Shown piece by piece: positions 12,828-29,146 of a stretch of DNA of 33,149 bases. The notes beneath the pieces were generated by a model, which did not search any database, was not told the DNA's origin, and worked only from the letters and a program-made list of their open reading frames with translations. Both the position numbers and the translations under genes were made by a program. The DNA is from Desulfuromusa sp. (GTDB lineage: Bacteria; Desulfobacterota; Desulfuromonadia; Desulfuromonadales; Geopsychrobacteraceae), in the NCBI GenBank assembly GCA_021157505.1, contig JAGGWI010000167.1:1-33149 (forward strand), written 5' to 3'. Each line of letters begins with the position of its first letter. Positions within the stretch are counted from its first letter, which is position 1.

Positions 12828-12993
12828 AGGAGCCTGTCGGACACTCCATGAACTGGCTGCAAATCCGTTTATTTGGCTCAGTTTTCAGCTCCTTTTTGCC
12901 CCATAGCTATGGCTATGAGCCTGCAAACGAGCTAAAAAACTGTTCTCAAACCTCCAAATTTTCGCTTCAGTTCGTAGTGTCCGACAGACTCCT
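12828..12993. repeat. full copy (A) of the ctgtcggac palindromic repeat family, 166 bp
   Basis: Terminal inverted repeats aggagcctgtcggacact / agtgtccgacagactcct; internal sequence nearly identical, inverted, to 24745-24909. Confidence 0.92.
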
Positions 12994-13015
12994 AGGGAAG
13001 ATTCGAAAATCAGAA

Positions 13016-16794: not shown

Positions 16795-18432
16795 TCAGCG
16801 GGCATATTTTTGTTCTGCCTTGGGTACAAACCACTGATTAAAATTATAGCGGATCCCGGCGGGTTCCGGTTTTACCCCACGAAACCTCTTGGACACTGCC
16901 GGTAAAGCCTCACCAATATAGAGAAATGTATAGGGCTGCTCTTCAGCCAGTATTTCCTGGAAACGGTCATAAAAAACTTTGCGCTGGCGTTGATCAAAAA
17001 CTCGCCGACCTTGCTCCAGCATACTATCGACCTCTCCGTTTTTAAAACCAACAAAGTTCAATTCACGCGGGCCGGTCTTACTGGAATGCCAGATATTATA
17101 CTGATCCGGCTCTGGTCCACCGGTCCAACCAAGAATCGTCGCATCAAAGTTGCCCGGATTGATAAACTCCTTGAGAAACGTTGCCCATTCAATAATCCGC
17201 AAATTTACTGCAACACCAATCTCTTTGAAACGCCGTTGAATAATTTCACCGGTCTTCGAGCGCAGATCATTGCCCTGATTGGTAACAATCGTAAATGCCA
17301 GTTCCTTGCCATCCTTGTCCAAAATACCATTGTCATCAGTATCCTGCCAGCCAGCTTCGGCCAAAAGCTGTCGAGCCTTATCTGGATCGTACGAATATTT
17401 TGCAACATCACCATTATAAACCCAGGTATCCGGCTTATATGGCCCGGTGGCAACTTTACCATACCCCAGCAGGACACCATCAATAAGTTCCTGTTTATTG
17501 ATAGCATAGGAGAGAGCCTGCCTGACTCGTTTATCCTGAAACAGCGGACGCTTCATATTATAACCGAGGTAAGTATACCCGAAATTCAGATAACGGTATT
17601 TATTATACAGCCGCCTGAATGCGGGGGTATCTGTCTGGCGATCAAACTGCAATGGTGAAAGGCCCATATAATCAAGACTACCGGTCTGCAATTCAAGAAA
17701 CTGAGTGGAAATATCAGGAATAATTCGATAGACGACTCGCTTGATGTATGGTTGCCCCTCAAAGTAGTCAGGATTGGACTCAAGAACAATTTTCTCACCC
17801 CCCAGCCACTCAATAAACCGATAGGGGCCAGTGCCAACCGGCTTACGTGCCAGCAGACTTTTGGTGATACTTTCACCTTCCAACAAGTGGCGAGGATGAA
17901 TTGACGTCGCCCAACTGATCAATGCCGGAGCATAGGGCTTGTCATAATGAACGATAAAGGTGTAGGGGTCGGGTGTTTCTATCCCGGTGACCTGTTTAAA
18001 TGATTCGGCATAAGCTGTCGGAGTTTTGGGATCGACATAAAGCTGATAGGTAAATCTTACGTCTGCAGAAGTAAATGGTGCACCATCGTGCCAGGTCACC
18101 CCTTGGCGCAGGTGAAAAGTGATGGTCAAATTGTCCTCTGAGATCTCCCAGGATTCAGCCAGTTCCCCCTCTATCTGCAGATTTTTATCATAACGGATCA
18201 AACCGTTATAGATTAAACCATTGATCGAACTGGAAGCGGAATCTGAAGCCAGAACTGGCAACAGAGTGCTGGCATCCCCAATTGAAGATTCAATAAAAGT
18301 GTCGCCATATTCTGGGGCAACTGCCACGACAGTTCCCGGGTGGCTGGCTTCATTACTGTTACTGCAACCGCCAAGCAGTAACATAACAATCGTGATAAAT
18401 AAAAAGTGACGGGTGAAAGTATTTTTCATCAA
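16795..18432 (-). CDS. oppA: peptide-binding ABC transporter substrate-binding lipoprotein
   Basis: Lipobox LLLGGCSNSN; SBP family 5 motif LAESWEISEDNLTITFHLRQGVTWHDGAPFTSADVRFTY. Confidence 0.92.
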   Translation of the reverse strand: MMKNTFTRHFLFITIVMLLLGGCSNSNEASHPGTVVAVAPEYGDTFIESSIGDASTLLPVLASDSASSSINGLIYNGLIRYDKNLQIEGELAESWEISEDNLTITFHLRQGVTWHDGAPFTSADVRFTYQLYVDPKTPTAYAESFKQVTGIETPDPYTFIVHYDKPYAPALISWATSIHPRHLLEGESITKSLLARKPVGTGPYRFIEWLGGEKIVLESNPDYFEGQPYIKRVVYRIIPDISTQFLELQTGSLDYMGLSPLQFDRQTDTPAFRRLYNKYRYLNFGYTYLGYNMKRPLFQDKRVRQALSYAINKQELIDGVLLGYGKVATGPYKPDTWVYNGDVAKYSYDPDKARQLLAEAGWQDTDDNGILDKDGKELAFTIVTNQGNDLRSKTGEIIQRRFKEIGVAVNLRIIEWATFLKEFINPGNFDATILGWTGGPEPDQYNIWHSSKTGPRELNFVGFKNGEVDSMLEQGRRVFDQRQRKVFYDRFQEILAEEQPYTFLYIGEALPAVSKRFRGVKPEPAGIRYNFNQWFVPKAEQKYAR

Positions 18433-18443
18433 TTTATACCAGC

Positions 18444-19208
18444 TCAGTCAGGCAATTCTTCAATCGGGATATTCACATGTTCTTTCAGGGAAAACCGGGC
18501 AAGATCAATCCTTGTGTTGACCTTCAGATCAGAAAATTTCACTTTAATCCGAGTCTGTTCCAGTGGCATTGCAAGCTGGACCAGTTGTGGAAACTGATTT
18601 TTCTTGGAAAACTTTTGATAATCAACGGACAGATACATTTCCGCCGCCGCAAAATAGCGACAACCTACGACTCTGAGTTGCTGATCAAATAACAGTTCCT
18701 GACGGTTATTGTCGGAACCCAGCAAGGTCAATATTAAGTTTTTTCCTGATACAGTAACACTGCTGTGCTGATAAACAATCAGCGGCGGCTCATACAGCAA
18801 CAGGGTGAGCAAATCTTCTATCGCAAGGGGAACCTTGATAAAACGGTAAAGATTTTCATAACTGGCCGAACCACGGAAAAACCTGGCAGGTACAGTCGTA
18901 TTGAGAAATACCGTCAAAATTTCACCGTCAGAGGCAATTTGGAGTGCGAGTTGGCCAAATCCAGTGAGCACATCAGCCCGTAACCGATCCGGTTTCTGCA
19001 ATAAGAGAAACTGTTGGCTGGAAAAAAACTTCTTTTCAGTGGTCAAAGCCACACTGGCAGCGGCATCTAACGACGAATAGCGCTTTGAATTGGAGCTAAG
19101 GCCATCCAGTAACTGCTGTGCCGTGGGGATTTCGGTCCAAACCGGATCCGGCGGACGAATACAACCGACCAGCAGAACAAACAGAGATAAAAGCAACCAG
19201 CGCATCAA
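18444..19208 (-). CDS. outer-membrane-type lipoprotein, DUF4292/LolB-like
   Basis: Lipobox LFVLLVGCIRPP; FFSSQQFLLLQKPDRLRADVLTGFGQLALQIASDGEILTVFLN is LolB/LppX-like beta half-barrel sequence. Confidence 0.7.
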   Translation of the reverse strand: MMRWLLLSLFVLLVGCIRPPDPVWTEIPTAQQLLDGLSSNSKRYSSLDAAASVALTTEKKFFSSQQFLLLQKPDRLRADVLTGFGQLALQIASDGEILTVFLNTTVPARFFRGSASYENLYRFIKVPLAIEDLLTLLLYEPPLIVYQHSSVTVSGKNLILTLLGSDNNRQELLFDQQLRVVGCRYFAAAEMYLSVDYQKFSKKNQFPQLVQLAMPLEQTRIKVKFSDLKVNTRIDLARFSLKEHVNIPIEELPD

Positions 19209-20944
19209 TGCCCCTCCAAGGATAACCGTTTAAGCTTTTCTTTAACCTGCGTCGCGTGAGGATCTATTTTTAATGCTTGTCGATACGCTGACTCAGCTTT
19301 CTCCCACAGGTTCATAGCACGATAAAGATCCCCCAGATGTTCTTGAATGACAGCATCGTCAGGATGTAACTCAGTCGCCCTTTCCAGTTGCTCACGGCTT
19401 TCAGAATAACGGCCCATTTTAAAAAGCACCCACCCCAGAGTGTCAACGATATAACCACTTGGCTTAATTGCCAACGCTTTTTGTGCGCGGGACAATGCTA
19501 AATCGAGATCAATTTCGTTCTCTGCCTGCCCATAAGCAAGAAAATTTAATGCATCAGGATGGGCATCATCCAATAACAGAATTTTTTCTATCGTCTCTAC
19601 TGCAGACTGATGCTGCTCCATTTTTTCATAGAGCCCCCCAAGCTGGTAAAGTAATTGGATTTCTTCCGGATATTTCTCCAGTCCGATCAATGCGACAGCA
19701 ACAGCCTGCTCATAATCCCCACTATCATCGAGAAAAACAACGAGATAGTAATATAAATCGGGTCGCTCTACCCCCTGCGCCTGTAGTTGCCGCAAGATTA
19801 GAATGGATTTATCATTCTGATCCGTTTGTTTGTACAGGTAGGCCAACTGCAAGGCTGCCTCGGTGTAAATCGGTGAAGCACTGGATAGTGGTTCCAAAGC
19901 GGCAATAGCCTCTGAAAATTTCCCCTGCTCTGATAACGCCAGAGAGAGATAATAACGACGGTTTTCTTGATCATCTCTCGATTCCAGCAACAGCCGAAAG
20001 GTCTTTTCAGCTTCAACCCATCTTTCCAGTTCCAATTGAACCAATCCGATTTGATTGATTATTTTTAAATTATCGGGAAATTGTTGTTGGATTACTTTGA
20101 GTTGTACGAGAGCATCATCCAATTGATTCTGCTCCAGAAGATATTGTGCAAGTTGTTGTCTAACCGCTATCTCCCTTGGATTTTGATCAATGAAGGATTG
20201 ATACAGCTCAAAGGCCGCGGTGGAATCTTCCTGCTCCAACAATTTGCCTAATTCCAGAACCACCGGTCCCTGAGCCGGCTGCTGCTTTAGCAACTGCTGA
20301 TAGGCTGCTGCAGCCTTATCCGTCTGTTTTTCCAGCAGATAAAGACGTGCCAGGTTGAGCCGGGCAAGATCGCCCTCTGGATGCTGTTCAAGCAGTGTTT
20401 CCAATACGCTTATCGCTTCTTTCTTCCGTTCCAGTCGGGTAAGCGCCATCGCCAGGCGCAATGGCAATACCGCATTATCCGGATCCAACTGTAATGCCCG
20501 GCGAAAATGGTTGACTGCAAGAACGTACTTTTGCTGAAAGCTGAAAACCTCCCCCAGCAGCTCATGGCTCGCGACATTATCCTGGTTTTTGGCCAACAAA
20601 GTTTCCAGAACTGTAACCGCTTGCTCCGGTTGTTGACGGTGCAGATAGGCCCGAGCCAGAATCAGCTGCAAATAATCGGACTGCGGATCAAAACTGATGG
20701 CTTGCTCAAGAGCAGCAATCGCCTCTTCCCACCGATTTTCAGCTCCGAGCATTCTGAATTCACTGAAATAAAAAAGGGCCTTTGCTTCAGGATCAACCAG
20801 CTCTGAATGATATTTAACGGAACTGCCATTCTCCTGAACGGGTAATTGAGACCGATCCGCTGTAACACAGCCGGAAACAATCATCAGGCTGAGGCATAAG
20901 CTGAAAACTATTTTTTTAACCCTTAAAACGGACTGAATCTTCAA
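19205..20944 (-). CDS. TPR-repeat lipoprotein (probable TTG start at 20944)
   Basis: Many TPR units (e.g. YVLAVNHFRRALQLDPDNAVLPLRLAMALTRLERKKEAISVLETLL); lipobox LSLMIVSGCVTA; AAGGA upstream of TTG 20944; stop overlaps the start of the DUF4292-like gene. Confidence 0.85.
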   Translation of the reverse strand: MKIQSVLRVKKIVFSLCLSLMIVSGCVTADRSQLPVQENGSSVKYHSELVDPEAKALFYFSEFRMLGAENRWEEAIAALEQAISFDPQSDYLQLILARAYLHRQQPEQAVTVLETLLAKNQDNVASHELLGEVFSFQQKYVLAVNHFRRALQLDPDNAVLPLRLAMALTRLERKKEAISVLETLLEQHPEGDLARLNLARLYLLEKQTDKAAAAYQQLLKQQPAQGPVVLELGKLLEQEDSTAAFELYQSFIDQNPREIAVRQQLAQYLLEQNQLDDALVQLKVIQQQFPDNLKIINQIGLVQLELERWVEAEKTFRLLLESRDDQENRRYYLSLALSEQGKFSEAIAALEPLSSASPIYTEAALQLAYLYKQTDQNDKSILILRQLQAQGVERPDLYYYLVVFLDDSGDYEQAVAVALIGLEKYPEEIQLLYQLGGLYEKMEQHQSAVETIEKILLLDDAHPDALNFLAYGQAENEIDLDLALSRAQKALAIKPSGYIVDTLGWVLFKMGRYSESREQLERATELHPDDAVIQEHLGDLYRAMNLWEKAESAYRQALKIDPHATQVKEKLKRLSLEGH

Positions 20945-21238
20945 AAAAATTTCCTTCAGACAGACGAGGGTATAAAAACCCCTAGCCATCGATGCTGGTC
21001 TCATAAAAAAACAAAATATGCTGACTAAGCCAGTATTGATTAAGTAGCATACTCATTTCCCGAGCGTCAAACCCTTTAAAAAACGTCTGCTCAACTTTAC
21101 AGAGTTGATATCTCTGGTAAATCCACATCATGTGAAGATTATAATTATTGTAATTATATCCTTTCAGGATTAGTCTGTAGAGTGTCTGTCTGATTTAGAA
21201 TAGCATCGCTGTGGATTTAACCTGAAAAAGGTCTGCCG

Positions 21239-21490
21239 ATGAAAGAATCACAAGAAAGTTCGATCAGAGAAGCTTGGGTCCTCTGTCTGATTCTAGGCCT
21301 GATCATGATCAATTTCCCCTTTATCCATATCTTCAATACCGAACAGCTTGTTTTCGGTATTCCGAAACTGGTTCTCTATTTCTTTACCGGCTGGCCGATA
21401 TCAATAGTCGTTATCTTCTTTTTTGTCCGCTACACAGGAAAAGAATCGCCCGACAGTGTCGATATGGGGGGAGATAAAAACGACCCATGA
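21239..21490 (+). CDS. small two-TM membrane protein, CbrX-like accessory of an SLC5/CbrA-type protein
   Basis: 83 aa with two hydrophobic stretches; ATGA overlap with the downstream symporter fusion; position and size parallel cbrX-cbrA in Pseudomonas. Confidence 0.75.
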   Translation: MKESQESSIREAWVLCLILGLIMINFPFIHIFNTEQLVFGIPKLVLYFFTGWPISIVVIFFFVRYTGKESPDSVDMGGDKNDP

Positions 21491-24400
21491 TCCCGGCAAA
21501 GACCACCCTCTTCATGTCGATCATCTCTGCTAAAACGGTTCTGCTTGTCTCCCTTGGCTATTTTGCACTGTTGTTTCTGGTCGCCTTATATGCTGAGAAG
21601 TGCCGTAAAACTGGCAGCTGCCTGCTGAAAAATTCACATGTCTATTCGTTGTCACTTGCGGTCTATTGCACCAGCTGGACATTTTATGGCAGCGTTGGCA
21701 AGGCAGCCACCAGCGGCCTGGAATTCCTCCCGATCTACCTGGGGCCAACCCTGATTGCATTCACCTGGTGGTTTTTGCTGCGTAAGATGGTGCGTATCAG
21801 CAAGCAACAGAATATTACCAGTATTGCCGACTTTCTTTCCAGCCGCTATGATCGTTCCACCCTCCTTGGCGCCATTGTCACTCTGTTTGCGGTATTCGGT
21901 ATTACCCCATATATAGCCCTGCAGCTGAAAGCCATATCAAAGACATTGGATATTCTCTCCGCACCTTTAACTGCCCACGGTACTGGTCTGTACGATTATG
22001 CCACCAAACTTCCAGGAAATATAGACACAGCATTTTTAGTTGCCGTACTGCTGGCCATTTTCGGCATGTTGTTTGGTGCCAGAAGCCTTGATGCTTCAGA
22101 AAAGCATGAAGGACTGGTTGTCGCGGTTGCTTTTGAATCTTTGGTCAAGCTGATTGCTTTTCTTGCTGTCGGTATCTTTGTCACTTATGGTCTGTTTGAT
22201 GGTTTTATCGATATTTTCCAGCGTTTTTATGAACAGTTTCCGGAACGCCACGATCTACTCCGCCTTGGCACCGAACAGACCCCGTACACCAAATGGTTTA
22301 CCCTCATTGTCCTGTCGATGATGGCGGTGATGTTTCTGCCGCGTCAATTTCATATCATGATTACTGAAAATACCGACGAACAGCATATTAAATCAGCAAT
22401 GTGGAAATTTCCGGCCTATCTGTTTCTGATGAACCTGTTTGTCCTGCCGATTGCCCTCGGTGGTTTGATCATTAACGGCGGTGATACCACCCAGGCCGAC
22501 TTCTTTGTCCTGACTCTGCCACTCTCTTCGGGACACCCCTGGTTGGCGTTGCTGGTCTTTATTGGTGGCTTGTCTGCCTCAGCCGGAATGGTCATGGTTT
22601 CTTCGGTCACCATAGCAACAATGATCCTTAACCATCTGGTCATGCCGGTCATTCTAAAAATGAATATTCAGGCGCAGAATTTCTCCAGGACCTTAATCAA
22701 CATCAAACGGCTTGGTATTCTCGGGGTTATCTGTATCGGTTATTTCTATTTCAAGGTCATTGGTGATTCCTACGCCCTGGTCAATATGGGGTTGATATCC
22801 TTTGCTGCGGCCACTCAGTTCGCACCTGCCGTCATCGGCGGGCTTTTCTGGAAGAGAGCTAACCATAAAGCGGCGATTGCTGGAATCAGCTTCGGCTTTA
22901 TCCTCTGGTTTTATACTCTGTTAATTCCATCATTTGTCCGCTCCGGCTGGCTCCACTCAGATATCCTGCAGAATGGCCTGTTTGGCATCAACCTGCTGAA
23001 GCCCCTGGAACTGTTCGGTCTGCGCGGTTTTGATATCTATACTCACTCCCTGTTCTGGAGCATGCTTTTCAACCTGGCGGCCTATTTAACCTTATCTTTC
23101 TTTGCCAAGCAGACAGAATCAGAAGAAATTCAAGCTGACGCATTTGTCGATATCTTTGTCGAACAACCACGACAACCAGGCAAATTGAAGCGGATTAGCA
23201 AAGCACCAACGGTTATGGAATTTGTTGAGCTGATGTCCAAGTTTATCGGCGAAAAATCGGCCCAGGATGCCATCGCTGAATATTTGAATCAGCAGGAAAT
23301 TAATGCTAAAGGAAGTCTTTCCGATCACGAAATTCCAAACCTGAAAGATTTTACCGAACGAACCTTGGCAGGACACGTGGGAGCGGCTCCAGCACGCATC
23401 ATTCTGGAAAACTACCTCTCTGCTCGGGGCAGTGAAATGGAAGATGTTTTTGATATTTTTGGTACGGTCACCATCAGTCACGCCTCCAGTCGGGAGCAAT
23501 TGAGTGTATTGTACGACACCTCACAGATCGTTTCCAGAGAGGGTGATTTACAAAAAATTCTTGACAGGATCCTTAACCTGCTTGCTGAACAATTCAAATT
23601 TGATCTCTGTGTCATCCGCTTTCTTGAACCGGAATCAATGACACTGATAGTCAAAAGTCTGGTCGGCACATCATCAGAACATTTTGGTCAGTTTGAACGT
23701 AATCTCAATATGGAAACCTATATCGGGCAGGCATTCCTGTCTAATGTCACCACCGTCGTCAATGATACTGACAATGTCGACAGGCCCACCTCAGCAGAAC
23801 ATATCAAGCGAGACGGGATTACCTGCCTGGCGCATACGCCAATTGTTTTTGAGGGTGACCCTGTCGGAATTCTGTCAGCTTTTTCCAAAACAGAAAAAGG
23901 GATTTTCACCAAGGAATTCATTGCTCTATTTGAGAACATGGCTGGACAGATCAGCATTGCCTGGCGCAATGATCAGCAACTGCAGAAACTACTGCGGGTT
24001 CGCGAACAAGAGCGTGAAATGCAGATAGCCAAAGACATCCAGAAAGGTCTTCTCCCGGCAAACCTTCCCGATCTGGAAAATATTGACATTGCCGGGCTCT
24101 GTGTCCCTGCACACCAGGTTGGAGGAGATTATTACGACTTTATTAACCGCAATGGGACATCTTACGATCTGATCATAGCTGACGTGTCGGGGCACAGTAT
24201 AGGCTCAGCTCTGATCATGGCTGAAACGCGCACCTTTATCCATGCCCGGATGGAAAGTATCAAACAACCGGCCAAGATGTTGCAGGCGCTCAACTCCTAT
24301 TTTCTTAAAGATCTGGATCGCTCTGATCTGTTTGTCACCATGTTTTACCTGCAATACAACCTTGTCAATCGCCGCTTAATTTATAGCAATGCTGGACACA

Positions 24401-24738
24401 ACACCCCTCTTCTCTGGAAAAAACGGGAACAGTACCTCAAGACCCTGGATACCGAAGGTTTAATTTTTGGCATCAAAGAGGATATTTCCTTTGAGCAAAA
24501 AGCGACCGACCTTGAACCTGGAGATATCCTTCTTTTATATACAGATGGAATCATTGAAGCTGAAAATAGAGATAAAGTTTTTTTCGGCATTGAGAGGCTT
24601 GCCAAGGTGCTTGAGGAATGCGATGATTTAAACCCACAAGAATTGATTGATCAGATTATGATTCAAGGACGTATTTTTACCGGCATGCGCCATTTTAATG
24701 ATGATGTCACCTTGGTCGTTATGAAAGTTTTGAAATAA
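21487..24738 (+). CDS. SLC5/sodium:solute symporter - STAC-like linker - GAF - SpoIIE (PP2C) phosphatase fusion protein
   Basis: Residues ~1-540 multi-TM symporter (SLAVYCTSWTFYGSVGKAATSGLEFLPIYLGP is CbrA-like); then FTERTLAGHVGAAPARIILENYL (STAC-like); GAF region; C-term GLCVPAHQVGGDYYDFI...IIADVSGHSIGSALIMA...GDILLLYTDGIIEA...FNDDVTLVVMKV is SpoIIE/RsbU-like. Confidence 0.92.
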   Translation: MIPAKTTLFMSIISAKTVLLVSLGYFALLFLVALYAEKCRKTGSCLLKNSHVYSLSLAVYCTSWTFYGSVGKAATSGLEFLPIYLGPTLIAFTWWFLLRKMVRISKQQNITSIADFLSSRYDRSTLLGAIVTLFAVFGITPYIALQLKAISKTLDILSAPLTAHGTGLYDYATKLPGNIDTAFLVAVLLAIFGMLFGARSLDASEKHEGLVVAVAFESLVKLIAFLAVGIFVTYGLFDGFIDIFQRFYEQFPERHDLLRLGTEQTPYTKWFTLIVLSMMAVMFLPRQFHIMITENTDEQHIKSAMWKFPAYLFLMNLFVLPIALGGLIINGGDTTQADFFVLTLPLSSGHPWLALLVFIGGLSASAGMVMVSSVTIATMILNHLVMPVILKMNIQAQNFSRTLINIKRLGILGVICIGYFYFKVIGDSYALVNMGLISFAAATQFAPAVIGGLFWKRANHKAAIAGISFGFILWFYTLLIPSFVRSGWLHSDILQNGLFGINLLKPLELFGLRGFDIYTHSLFWSMLFNLAAYLTLSFFAKQTESEEIQADAFVDIFVEQPRQPGKLKRISKAPTVMEFVELMSKFIGEKSAQDAIAEYLNQQEINAKGSLSDHEIPNLKDFTERTLAGHVGAAPARIILENYLSARGSEMEDVFDIFGTVTISHASSREQLSVLYDTSQIVSREGDLQKILDRILNLLAEQFKFDLCVIRFLEPESMTLIVKSLVGTSSEHFGQFERNLNMETYIGQAFLSNVTTVVNDTDNVDRPTSAEHIKRDGITCLAHTPIVFEGDPVGILSAFSKTEKGIFTKEFIALFENMAGQISIAWRNDQQLQKLLRVREQEREMQIAKDIQKGLLPANLPDLENIDIAGLCVPAHQVGGDYYDFINRNGTSYDLIIADVSGHSIGSALIMAETRTFIHARMESIKQPAKMLQALNSYFLKDLDRSDLFVTMFYLQYNLVNRRLIYSNAGHNTPLLWKKREQYLKTLDTEGLIFGIKEDISFEQKATDLEPGDILLLYTDGIIEAENRDKVFFGIERLAKVLEECDDLNPQELIDQIMIQGRIFTGMRHFNDDVTLVVMKVLK

Positions 24739-24744
24739 TGGCCC

Positions 24745-24909
24745 AGGAGGCTGTCGGACACTACGGACTGAAGCGAAAATTCGGAGGTTTGAGAACAGTT
24801 TTTAGCTCGTTTGCAGGCTCATAGCCAAAGCTATGGGGCAAAAAGGAGCTAAAAAATGAGCCAAACAAACGGATTTGCAGCCAGTTCATGGAGTGTCCGA
24901 CAGGCTGCT
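24745..24909. repeat. full copy (B) of the ctgtcggac palindromic repeat family, ~165 bp, inverted relative to copy A
   Basis: aggaggctgtcggacact...agtgtccgacaggctgct; internal sequence is the reverse complement of 12828-12993 with few differences. Confidence 0.92.
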
Positions 24910-25046
24910 ATCTATTTCATCTTATTTGCGGTGCGAGACCATAAAGTGACCATTCAAGCAAAAGATTTAGTCCCAGTGTTGAAAAATAAGGTACAATTAA
25001 AATAATTCAAAAAATCGATGATTACACTCTAAGAAGGAGAATCCAC

Positions 25047-25382
25047 ATGCAGTTAAAGATGGTAGAACAGGACGATATTGTCAATATAAGCATCGAAGAA
25101 GAGCGAATGGATGCCCACAATAGTGGCGATCTTAAAGAGCAGATGTTGCAACTGTTTGATGAGGGAAAGTGCAACCTGATTATTGACCTGAGCTCGGTTC
25201 GCTTTATTGATTCATCCGGCCTCGGTGCTTTAGTATCAGGCTTTAAAAATGCCGGGGCTCGCGAGGGGAGTCTTAAACTCTGCTGCCTGCAGCCACAGGT
25301 TCGTTCAATGTTTGAACTGACACGTTTACATCGAGTTTTTGAAATTTTCGCCAATCGGGATGAGGCTCTGGAGAGCTTTTAA
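25047..25382 (+). CDS. STAS-domain anti-sigma factor antagonist (RsbV/SpoIIAA family)
   Basis: NLIIDLSSVRFIDSSGLGALVSGFKNA contains the conserved phosphorylatable serine motif; AAGGAG upstream. Confidence 0.92.
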   Translation: MQLKMVEQDDIVNISIEEERMDAHNSGDLKEQMLQLFDEGKCNLIIDLSSVRFIDSSGLGALVSGFKNAGAREGSLKLCCLQPQVRSMFELTRLHRVFEIFANRDEALESF

Positions 25383-25413
25383 TCAACAACCCATTTCTGG
25401 CAGAAAGATACAA

Positions 25414-25836
25414 ATGTCAAAAAGGATCAAGGTTGACATAACGGTTCCAAACCAAACCAAATACCTTGGGGTGATCGGGCGAATTGGTGAGAGTATGGCA
25501 TATTCCCTGAAGGGGTATCGGGGAAACCGCCGGGAGCTTGCCTATCACCTTAATCTGGTCTTGACAGAAGCCCTGGCAAATGCGATCTGTCATGCCAACA
25601 GCTGTGACCCTGACAAAGATGTCAGGGTGTTGATTACCGCCTCTGATCAAGATCTGACTATCAAGGTTTATGATCAGGGAGAGGGTTTTGATATGGAAGC
25701 TTTAACTAAGCTCAAAGCCCGAAAACACGATGAAGGGGGACGTGGAATCCAGATTATTTTCAAGTTGATGGACCGGGTAAAATATCTCCAGGAAGGCAAC
25801 AGAAACGTTTTAGAAATGACCAAATATTTCCATTAA
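25414..25836 (+). CDS. RsbW/SpoIIAB-like serine kinase (HATPase_c anti-sigma factor family)
   Basis: LVLTEALANAICHANSCDPDKDVRVLI (N-box), VYDQGEGFD, GGRGIQIIFKLMD (G-box); start placed at MSKRIKVD (25414). Confidence 0.88.
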   Translation: MSKRIKVDITVPNQTKYLGVIGRIGESMAYSLKGYRGNRRELAYHLNLVLTEALANAICHANSCDPDKDVRVLITASDQDLTIKVYDQGEGFDMEALTKLKARKHDEGGRGIQIIFKLMDRVKYLQEGNRNVLEMTKYFH

Positions 25837-25847
25837 TCTGCTAACCG

Positions 25848-27194
25848 TCAGCTTTCACCATATTCTTTCAGTTTGCGCCTGAGGGTGAGTCGATTGATTC
25901 CCAGAATATCTGCCGTACGAGTTTTGTTGTAATCGGTTTTTTTATAAACTGCAAGAATGTGGTTTTTTTCTACTTCAGAAAGCGGCACCATCTCTTCTGT
26001 TGCCGCTTTTGCTCCCGAACAACACCCGACCAAAGCTAGATCTTCAGGACTGATTGTTCCCCCCGAATGGAGAAGAGTTGCCCGCTCAATGACATTTTTC
26101 AACTCTCTGACATTGCCTGGCCACTGATGTTTCCGCAGACATTCCATAGCGGTGGAGGAGAACTCACAACGCTTATCCGGGCTATGTAATAAAAACTCCT
26201 TAAGAAACAGATTAGCCAACAGGGGAATATCTTCTGGATGCTCTCGTAGAGGGGGAACCTGTATCGGAAAAACATTCAAACGGTAATAAAGATCTTCACG
26301 AAATAATCCTGCCTCTATCCTTTCTTGCAGGTTTCTATTTGTTGCAGCAACAATACGAACATCAACATGTATCAGCTGTTGTCCTCCAATCCGTGTCACC
26401 GTCATATCTTCGAGAACGCGAAGTAGTTTGGCTTGCAGTCCCGGTTCCATTTCTGCAATTTCATCCAGAAACAGAGTGCCGTGATCAGCAAGCTCAAAGA
26501 GCCCCTTCTGACGACTGATCGCACCCGTATATGCCCCTTTTTCATGGCCGAAAAGTTCATTTTCCAACAATGTTGCCGGTAAGGCGGCACAATTAATCTT
26601 GAGCAGAGGACCTTCATGCCTGGCACTCTGATAATGAATAGCCTCTACCACCAGTTCTTTACCGACACCACTCTCTCCAAAGACCAAAGTCGTTGTTGTC
26701 CCTGCCTTGGCAACCAGCAAAATCTCCTGACGCATTTTTCTGAGGATGTTGGATTCACCCTCCAGGCGGGTCCAGGAACGTTTGTTCCGCTGTTTTTCAC
26801 GTTGTCTGAAAGAATTCACCTCTCCCCGCAACTGTCGTGTATCCATGGCTCTTTCAACAATCAGTTGCAGTTCATCAAGATCAAATGGCTTGTTGATATA
26901 ATCAAATGCCCCGAGTTTTAATGCTTTTACCGCAGTTTGAACCTCTGGAAATGCCGTCGCAACGATAACCAACGGTGATTGGGGGTCAGAAATTTCAGCA
27001 AGGAGATCCAGCCCCGACCCATCTGGCAATTTCATATCCAGAATCACCAGATCAAAATCGTGTCGATGGATCTCCCTTCTCGCCTCTGAGAGAGTAGCGG
27101 AACTTAGAGCAATATAATTTTCCTGCTGGAAAAAATCGACCAAGCTCTCACGCAGCATTTCCTCATCTTCAACAATCAGAATTCGCCCGCGCAT
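25848..27194 (-). CDS. sigma-54-dependent response regulator (NtrC family)
   Basis: Receiver LVILDMKLPDGSG; AAA+ GESGVGKELV, GAYTGA (GAFTGA loop), GTLFLDEIAEM; C-terminal Fis-type HTH KTRTADILGINRLTLRRKLKEYG. Confidence 0.95.
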   Translation of the reverse strand: MRGRILIVEDEEMLRESLVDFFQQENYIALSSATLSEARREIHRHDFDLVILDMKLPDGSGLDLLAEISDPQSPLVIVATAFPEVQTAVKALKLGAFDYINKPFDLDELQLIVERAMDTRQLRGEVNSFRQREKQRNKRSWTRLEGESNILRKMRQEILLVAKAGTTTTLVFGESGVGKELVVEAIHYQSARHEGPLLKINCAALPATLLENELFGHEKGAYTGAISRQKGLFELADHGTLFLDEIAEMEPGLQAKLLRVLEDMTVTRIGGQQLIHVDVRIVAATNRNLQERIEAGLFREDLYYRLNVFPIQVPPLREHPEDIPLLANLFLKEFLLHSPDKRCEFSSTAMECLRKHQWPGNVRELKNVIERATLLHSGGTISPEDLALVGCCSGAKAATEEMVPLSEVEKNHILAVYKKTDYNKTRTADILGINRLTLRRKLKEYGES

Positions 27195-29146
27195 CCACTA
27201 CCTCCTTCGGGAAAATGTATACTCGCTTCAACTCCACCTTCAGACCTGTTTTTCAGATGAACTTCCCCCCTCAATTCAGACACCAATTGTTTCACAATTG
27301 CCAACCCCAATCCGGTCCCCTCTGACTTGCTGGTGATGAGAGGTTCGAAGAGCTGATCGGCAAGTTCTTCCGGTAAACCACAGCCATTGTCACAGATATT
27401 GATTTCAAACTCCCCCCCTGAACTGCTGGCATAGACATCAACCTGTCCATTTTCATCACAGGCCTGCAGAGCATTCAGAATCAAGTTCATAAATATCTGG
27501 TGCAATTGCTGAGCTTTGGAACAGACCAGAAGGGGCTCAGGGGGCAAATGAAGATGCAATTTAATTTTGTTTCGGTCCGCTTCTTCACAAAGGATAAACT
27601 CAAGGTCACGCAGGACCTGACTGATATCAGTCTGCTCCCGTTCCTGTTTTTGTTGGGGCACCAGGTAGCTGGTTAGATGTCCAAGAAAATCGCCCAGACG
27701 ATCAACCAGTTTCAGCATCTTAGTGATATCCAACTGCAGTTTCTGATCGAGATCCTTGCGCCGCTGTATCAGTTGCAGCTTAACCCGCATCCCTGCCAGA
27801 GGGTTGCCAATTTCATGGGCTACTGTCGCTGACAGAAGACCCAAAGAGGATAACCTGTTTGCCTGCAAGAGCTGCTTCTCAAGAGTAATCATCAGTTTCT
27901 CAGCGGCTTCTGCCTCCATCTGAGAACGGCTGAGAGCAGCTACTTTCTTCTCAACTTCCTCTTTTAATAAGGCATTCCAATTCAGAAGTTCCGTATGGGT
28001 CTGTTTCTGCACTTGAGCCATTTCATTCAAGGCAGACGATAATTCACCAAATTCATCCCGGCTGGTAATACTTGAGATCGCCTTATAGTCTCCCCCGGCA
28101 ACTGCTTTAGCAAAACGGGAGAGATGACGAATCGGAAGACTGAAACGCCGGGCGGCAAGGATTGCCAGAATAGTGGCCAACAATGCCAGCAGTAAGAAAG
28201 AGAGGAGATAGGTTTTTTTCAGTTGGGTTAACTCGGTATAGAGATATTTTTGAGGATAAGCGATCAGCAGATACCAGAGACGGTCAGGGCCGGCACTGAC
28301 AGATGCCAGAGCCAGGATATCGGGCTTCATCGCCACAACATTAGACTCTTCATCCGGCTTGGGAAGGAGGGGGACAATTTGCGCAAGATTCTCAAGCTCA
28401 GAGGTCTCAGCATTAAAAAAACTTATCTCCCCCCCCTGTTTTTCCATCTTGATAAATTGGCGATTCTGGTTCAATAAAAGAATCCTGGTTCCATCCACAT
28501 TGAGCAAGTATTTGAGAGATGAGAGCAGTTTCGTACCAAAAACATTGATAATAATCAGTCCTGATGTTTCTCCTGAAGGGCCAATGATAGGGGCGGCAAC
28601 GCGGACTACCAAACGATTTGGTTCTTCAATCCGACCAAATTCCACGTTCAAATCCAGATGTGAAACATAGGTTTCGCCAGCAGTGCAGTGAAATGCCTCC
28701 TGAACATAATAACGATTACCCTTATCCTGCAATTCAGACTTTGGGACGACAACGGCTTTCCCCTCAATATTGTTGATTCGTAGCTGCTCATGTCCATCAG
28801 CAGCAATAAAACGGATCTGATAGTAGTCTTTTTCAACCATGATGGCGGCCAGAAATTCGTTTTGTATTAACTCCCACTGATCAGAGCTCATCTCGTCTTG
28901 AAGACGTCGCTGGAGAAAACGGGTGAGGGAGAGGACATCTCTTCTGACCCCATTCAGATAACCTTCAATCGAATTTCCAGCGGTGACCACCTCAGCCTGT
29001 AACCCTTGGGCAATCTGCGCACGTAAGGCCTTTTCCATCCTCTGTAAAGAAAGATTCCCCAGCAGCAATATTGGTCCCAGAGTCAGGCACAAAAACGCTA
29101 TCAACATTTTTCTTCGAATTGATAATGTGACCTGTGGAATCCGCAT
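27176..29146 (-). CDS. membrane sensor histidine kinase (Cache-like sensor, HAMP, HisKA, HATPase; NtrB-like)
   Basis: N-terminal TM, large extracytoplasmic region, second TM, HAMP; H-box ATVAHEIGNPLAG; ATPase ICDNGCGLPEELADQLFEPLITSKSEGTGLGLAIVKQL. Confidence 0.94.
   Translation of the reverse strand: MRIPQVTLSIRRKMLIAFLCLTLGPILLLGNLSLQRMEKALRAQIAQGLQAEVVTAGNSIEGYLNGVRRDVLSLTRFLQRRLQDEMSSDQWELIQNEFLAAIMVEKDYYQIRFIAADGHEQLRINNIEGKAVVVPKSELQDKGNRYYVQEAFHCTAGETYVSHLDLNVEFGRIEEPNRLVVRVAAPIIGPSGETSGLIIINVFGTKLLSSLKYLLNVDGTRILLLNQNRQFIKMEKQGGEISFFNAETSELENLAQIVPLLPKPDEESNVVAMKPDILALASVSAGPDRLWYLLIAYPQKYLYTELTQLKKTYLLSFLLLALLATILAILAARRFSLPIRHLSRFAKAVAGGDYKAISSITSRDEFGELSSALNEMAQVQKQTHTELLNWNALLKEEVEKKVAALSRSQMEAEAAEKLMITLEKQLLQANRLSSLGLLSATVAHEIGNPLAGMRVKLQLIQRRKDLDQKLQLDITKMLKLVDRLGDFLGHLTSYLVPQQKQEREQTDISQVLRDLEFILCEEADRNKIKLHLHLPPEPLLVCSKAQQLHQIFMNLILNALQACDENGQVDVYASSSGGEFEINICDNGCGLPEELADQLFEPLITSKSEGTGLGLAIVKQLVSELRGEVHLKNRSEGGVEASIHFPEGGSGCAGEF

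Follow-up and report, generated by a model that had tools for sequence, protein, structure and literature searches.

STAC proteins have been linked mainly to two-component outputs (PMC4834066) and also to GGDEF domains (PMC5715377). In CbrA of Pseudomonas, a transporter-like SLC5 domain and a STAC linker feed a PAS-DHp-CA histidine kinase acting on CbrB, and an overlapping upstream gene encodes CbrX, a protein with two transmembrane helices (PMC13022988). The related CrbS/MxtR (acetate) and RpuS (pyruvate), which are hybrid histidine kinases paired with LuxR-type response regulators, are reported to sense short carboxylates as solutes (PMC5715377, PMC9100948). In the partner-switching systems of Bacillales and Clostridioides, RsbU, RsbP or RsbZ joins an N-terminal sensor (a GAF domain in RsbZ) through a helical linker to a PPM phosphatase whose substrate is the STAS protein RsbV, the partner of the kinase RsbW, with sigma B as the target; in RsbU-type phosphatases the linker forms a coiled coil that dimerises and activates the PPM domain, and the authors propose that sensors are swappable among PPM, histidine-kinase and GGDEF outputs via such linkers (PMC12143880). 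Here a four-gene cassette is described from a 33,149-nucleotide contig of Desulfuromusa sp. (hereafter the window, meaning the whole stretch analysed), comprising a small gene X, a 1083-residue SLC5-STAC-GAF-SpoIIE/PPM fusion, a STAS protein and an RsbW-like kinase (Table 1). As a member of the SLC5/STAC family, the fusion probably senses a solute at the membrane and signals through a STAS phosphatase; the likeliest reading is a CrbS-like sensor of carboxylates in which that phosphatase has taken the place of the histidine kinase.

A first-pass annotation had proposed this cassette from the sequence alone, and the open reading frames of the window place all four genes where it had put them, with the exception of the kinase start, for which ATG 25414 (140 residues) is most likely correct rather than TTG 25339, since homology begins there. 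The cassette is conserved in many genomes, which excludes a chance arrangement. The domains it had named were recovered by Pfam and PDB searches. Pfam identified SpoIIE (residues 891-1081, 8e-48) and GAF (7.8e-14, with overlapping GAF models) in the fusion, STAS (7.7e-23) and HATPase_c_2 (7.1e-22) in the partners, and called neither SSF nor STAC in the 1083-residue protein. The SLC5-STAC input is supported by a phmmer match of residues 15-647 to the solved CbrA chain 10ed_A (E 3.5e-74, 32% identity, 588 columns), and the nearest solved relative of the GAF domain in the same search was 2qyb, a 'membrane protein, putative' of Geobacter sulfurreducens (1.2e-29), of which the literature search found no discussion. 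An AlphaFold2 model built with 37 orthologues (mean predicted local distance difference test score 81; predicted template modelling score 0.59, at which inter-domain placement is not trustworthy) predicted, as a monomer, the SLC5 helices with the second transmembrane helix broken at residues 61-62, four STAC helices (576-587, 589-600, 613-631 and 633-646), the GAF domain, a single unbroken helix over residues 809-855 and a PPM fold. Foldseek searches with this model retrieved the SLC5 transporters SGLT, NIS and SiaT, the phosphatases RssB, SiaA and SpoIIE, and again 2qyb. The SLC5 domain thus has the predicted LeuT fold of SLC5/STAC sensors, and beyond STAC only GAF and SpoIIE were found by Pfam, with no histidine-kinase output; by its domain sequence the protein belongs to the SLC5/STAC sensor family in its input half and is not an SLC5/STAC histidine kinase.

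Every metal-binding or catalytic position that was checked is conserved in the alignments. The SpoIIE metal-binding aspartates, whose presence the first-pass annotation had set as a check, are present (D881, D899, D1020 and D1073), invariant in 37 orthologues and aligned to those of RssB, Rv1364c and SpoIIE. The D-S-S-G motif of the STAS protein (D55-S56-S57-G58) occurs in 54/54 orthologues by pattern and is conserved in 95% or more of the 55 sequences aligned, and the kinase, which matches RsbW 6m36_A (E 6.9e-8), conserves E52, N56, D87, G89, G91, G109 and G111 at the N- and G-box positions of SpoIIAB/RsbW. Gene X overlaps the phosphatase gene by 4 bp (ATGA) and encodes hydrophobic helices at residues 14-32 and 45-63, with P27, F32, P42 and W52 invariant in the alignment. 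The earlier description of X as CbrX-like therefore stands for position, overlap and the two transmembrane helices, but a profile of X matched no PDB chain, so that homology to CbrX itself is unproven.

The distribution and gene neighbours of the fusion were compared across genomes. Near-complete matches to the whole fusion were present in 78 of 98 relative genomes (by table count), the remainder being mostly fragments at contig ends, with six genomes lacking the fusion, five of them from one family. In a phylum-wide sample, the full-length fusion was found in 12/12 Desulfuromonadia and in 0/285 other genomes. The family is lineage-wide in Desulfuromonadia, almost all of whose examined members carry it, and outside this class alignments end at about residue 849-871 or earlier. 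The kinase-type relatives found there share the SLC5-STAC(-GAF) architecture followed by HisKA-HATPase, in some cases with receiver domains (Pfam-verified in eight cases); those of the Desulfobulbia type are 44-51% identical to the fusion up to about residue 849, which includes GAF and the start of the linker, and often have X upstream, but differ in their kinase output, in a frequently adjoining response regulator and in the absence of STAS and RsbW. Among distinct loci with enough downstream sequence, STAS and/or RsbW adjoins 46/57 phosphatase fusions versus 0/32 kinase-type relatives (Fisher 3.7e-15, a descriptive value given that the loci are phylogenetically related), whereas a response regulator, counted where detectable with the regulator of the window as query, adjoins 13/32 kinase-type relatives and 0/57 fusions; X is the upstream gene in both groups, at 48/57 fusion loci and 22/32 kinase-type loci. 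This near-perfect link between output type and neighbours strongly supports the STAS and RsbW partners that had been expected from the sequence. In the SLC5-STAC tree, from which four long-branch rows were omitted, one change of output suffices (branch SH-aLRT, the Shimodaira-Hasegawa-like approximate likelihood ratio test, 99.4), and on this tree the phosphatase fusion arose once. The position of the swap fits the linker, as the predicted continuous helix and the kinase-relative match up to about residue 849 agree.

STAC-linked non-kinase outputs are already known, as are actinobacterial proteins that carry a symporter-like domain (SSS), HATPase_c, GAF and PP2C_SIG in one chain (PMC7918813); the latter are known from a SMART domain search only, are likened here by description, and differ in carrying their own HATPase. 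The literature search, which did not extend to the founding STAC paper (Korycinski 2015), found no paper joining SLC5-STAC with SpoIIE and partner switching, and none describing the output swap, the STAS-RsbW partners or the occurrence of the family throughout this lineage. From the sequence comparisons, a known input and a known output occur here in a new combination with strong genomic support.

The likely ligand was approached through the binding pocket, mapped by the 10ed_A alignment onto the CbrA cryo-EM paper (PMC13022988). Residues Y60, T62, W64, T65, F80, Y84, S277 and F439 are common to most of the fusion family, and K221, equivalent to CbrA K196, the lysine that fills the Na2 site, is invariant in 37 aligned orthologues. 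The fusion string YTWTFYKSF is closer to that of RpuS from S. fredii (YTWSFYKAF) and of an Acinetobacter kinase (YSWTFYKAF) whose gene adjoins one for an acetate symporter, a context that suggests a CrbS-like protein, than to that of the histidine-responsive CbrA (YSWAFYKFF), which departs at A56 and F248 where the fusion family has T65 and S277. On this basis our first guess at the ligand, held with low weight, is a short carboxylate.

In the proposed mechanism, a small solute, with a short carboxylate as the likeliest candidate, would occupy the LeuT-type pocket of SLC5, with K221 in the Na2 site tuning the pocket and X perhaps stabilising the protein. The resulting change would run through the STAC bundle beneath the transporter and then GAF, possibly with a second cytoplasmic signal, to the continuous helix, which may form a dimeric coiled coil. 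The PPM phosphatase would be expected to switch the STAS protein on by removing its phosphate, the unphosphorylated STAS protein would capture the RsbW-like kinase, and the target of RsbW would thereby be freed. That the phosphorylation of STAS is set directly by binding or transport of a solute, as proposed earlier, is an inference, in which binding is likelier than transport. Compared with the RsbU, RsbP and RsbZ systems, the putative module shares the succession of sensor, helical linker, PPM, STAS substrate and RsbW kinase, and differs in that their sensors are not transporter-like and their target sigma B has no counterpart over the cut-off here. Among the SLC5/STAC kinases, CbrA lacks STAS/RsbW, and CrbS/MxtR and RpuS lack a GAF-PPM output.

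The 11 fusions without STAS/RsbW neighbours (orphans) have flanks that include TRAP-transporter-like, glycolate-oxidase-like, universal-stress-protein-like and aromatic-degradation-like genes, as read from sequence without profile testing, and their pockets vary, in contrast to the nearly invariant pocket residues and K221 of the core cassette. An orphan and a core cassette occur together in genomes G051, G053, G087 and G122, and in three genomes (G016, G062 and G380) no stand-alone STAS protein was found other than that of the cassette. The placement of orphans beside catabolic and uptake genes, with altered pockets, suggests that several sensors feed one STAS-RsbW switch, on which the orphan paralogues would act as well. 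Conversely, in one family (five genomes, loci L168-L172), X and the sensor are gone and STAS-RsbW is kept between the same neighbours, so that the switch does not need the SLC5-SpoIIE sensor, but loci with the sensor have almost always retained the switch. At two of these five loci (L171 and L172), a 536-residue kinase-like open reading frame fills the gap. It is possible, although we hold this only tentatively, that Desulfuromonadia operate many transceptors on one switch, with SLC5-STAC-GAF-PPM paralogues pocket-tuned to different carbon sources converging on a single STAS-RsbW pair in place of the histidine-kinase output. The term 'one-protein transceptor', used in the first-pass annotation, understates such a system, which has a conserved companion in X and paralogues that appear to share one switch.

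Several observations weigh against a STAS phosphatase under solute control. A SigB/F/G-type sigma factor over the NCBIfam cut-off was found in 0/60 relatives, no conserved co-directional target gene lies downstream of RsbW, the conserved neighbours being on the opposite strand, and 11/57 fusions have no adjacent STAS or RsbW. The persistence of STAS-RsbW without the sensor in five genomes indicates that the pair must also work with other phosphatases, and the ligand assignment, drawn from nine pocket residues, is weak. Further, a palindromic repeat separates the phosphatase and STAS genes, which may not be co-transcribed in this genome.

Three other explanations were considered. In one, SLC5 is a degenerate membrane anchor and a cytoplasmic signal perceived by GAF or STAC sets STAS phosphorylation through the phosphatase, with no external solute; CbrA without its SLC5 part is still kinase-active when overexpressed, its PAS domain being needed (review PMC7918813), and GAF is common to the closest kinase-type relatives. 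However, SLC5 and STAC are the best conserved parts of the fusion (median identity 69% and 72%, versus 60% for PPM), and the core cassette shows almost no variation in the pocket residues and K221, whereas orphans next to other catabolic genes diverge there. An anchor would need neither, and we regard this explanation as unlikely. Less likely still, the protein would be a functional transporter with its cytoplasmic domains controlling uptake, so that the phosphatase regulates transport, or with transport flux itself as the signal. CbrA does transport histidine in a proton-dependent manner with a Na2-site lysine at the K221 position (PMC13022988), but the link of the PPM output to STAS-RsbW genes points to an outward switch rather than self-regulation, and occupancy sensing is probably the likelier mode, with transport itself not needed, because CrbS/CbrA activation and signalling have been reported to be independent of transport through SLC5 (PMC5715377).

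The least probable explanation, to which we give very little credence, is that the genes are neighbours by chance or through synteny alone, the phosphatase having other STAS proteins as its substrates and the adjacent STAS-RsbW pair being served by another phosphatase. The retention of STAS-RsbW where the sensor is lost is consistent with this, as is the presence in the same genome of a second STAS protein and of two further SpoIIE domains that look complete, besides a third, short match. Against it stand the neighbour counts, with STAS/RsbW beside most fusions and beside none of the kinase-type homologues, and the genomes in which the cassette STAS protein has no stand-alone alternative. A solute sensor with STAS phosphatase output remains the reading that we favour.

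Table 1. Features of the cassette, with positions in the window
Feature	Position	Strand	Evidence
Gene X, 83-aa CbrX-like companion with two transmembrane helices	21239..21490	+	Open reading frame; hydrophobic helices; conserved upstream position; alignment
SLC5-STAC-GAF-SpoIIE/PPM phosphatase, 1083 aa	21487..24738	+	Open reading frame, Pfam, PDB alignment, conservation, AlphaFold2 model, Foldseek
SLC5 (solute/sodium symporter-like) domain, residues about 12-545	21520..23121	+	CbrA 10ed_A alignment; conservation
STAC four-helix bundle, residues 576-646	23212..23424	+	CbrA alignment; AlphaFold2 model helices
GAF domain, residues 687-826	23545..23964	+	Pfam; PDB match 2qyb; Foldseek
Continuous helix 809-855, last GAF helix into presumed coiled-coil linker to PPM	23911..24051	+	AlphaFold2 model; sequence
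SpoIIE/PPM phosphatase domain	24157..24729	+	Pfam; invariant D881, D899, D1020, D1073
STAS protein (RsbV/SpoIIAA type), 111 aa, presumed phospho-Ser S56	25047..25382	+	Pfam; D-S-S-G alignment
RsbW/SpoIIAB-like serine kinase, 140 aa	25414..25836	+	Pfam; N-box E52/N56, G1 D87/G89/G91, G2 G109-R-G

The palindromic repeat of about 166 bp between the phosphatase and STAS genes (window 24745-24909) has about 39 other copies in the genome (83-98% identity) and lies also at 12828-12996 of the window; it is predicted to form a single long hairpin (-80 kcal/mol, z -7.7) and by its sequence resembles miniature inverted-repeat transposable elements or repetitive extragenic palindromes; an Rfam scan of the window, the repeat included, returned no family. 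The corresponding gap is only about 100 bp in most relatives. Downstream, genes for an NtrC-type response regulator and a membrane histidine kinase run convergently to the cassette (window 25848-29146, minus strand) and end 12 bases past the stop of the RsbW-like kinase, an arrangement seen at only a few Desulfuromusa loci. Upstream, the divergent genes for a TPR protein, a LolB-like lipoprotein and an OppA-like binding protein (16795-21004, minus strand) are conserved neighbours, with the TPR gene in 34/37 loci and the upstream neighbours kept also where the sensor is lost. This genome holds a further partner-switching module (L164, contig C26, 2220-5481, minus strand), truncated at the end of its contig, in which a STAS protein is accompanied by a fusion of a SpoIIE domain with an RsbW-like HATPase. 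In genome G257, an 847-residue open reading frame and a kinase-like protein precede a STAS-RsbW pair distinct from that of the cassette (42% and 31% identity; L173, 3860-7224, minus strand), and the SLC5-STAC protein elsewhere in that genome has a histidine-kinase output.

We know of no account of how SLC5-STAC proteins relay solute occupancy to their output, and STAS dephosphorylation would provide a clean in vitro readout of transceptor signalling. The same SLC5-STAC input half carries two outputs, a histidine kinase and a serine phosphatase, with genomic partners that change accordingly, in support of the view of dimeric linkers as an 'exchangeable toolkit' (PMC12143880). The sequence comparisons suggest a nutrient sensor wired into a regulatory circuit unlike that of its histidine-kinase relatives. 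If several transceptors do converge on one switch, the system would constitute a global carbon-source regulator that uses partner switching in place of a histidine-kinase output. Desulfuromonadales and Geobacterales matter in metal reduction and bioelectrochemistry, and the fusion is a nearly universal candidate regulator of carbon use in these orders.

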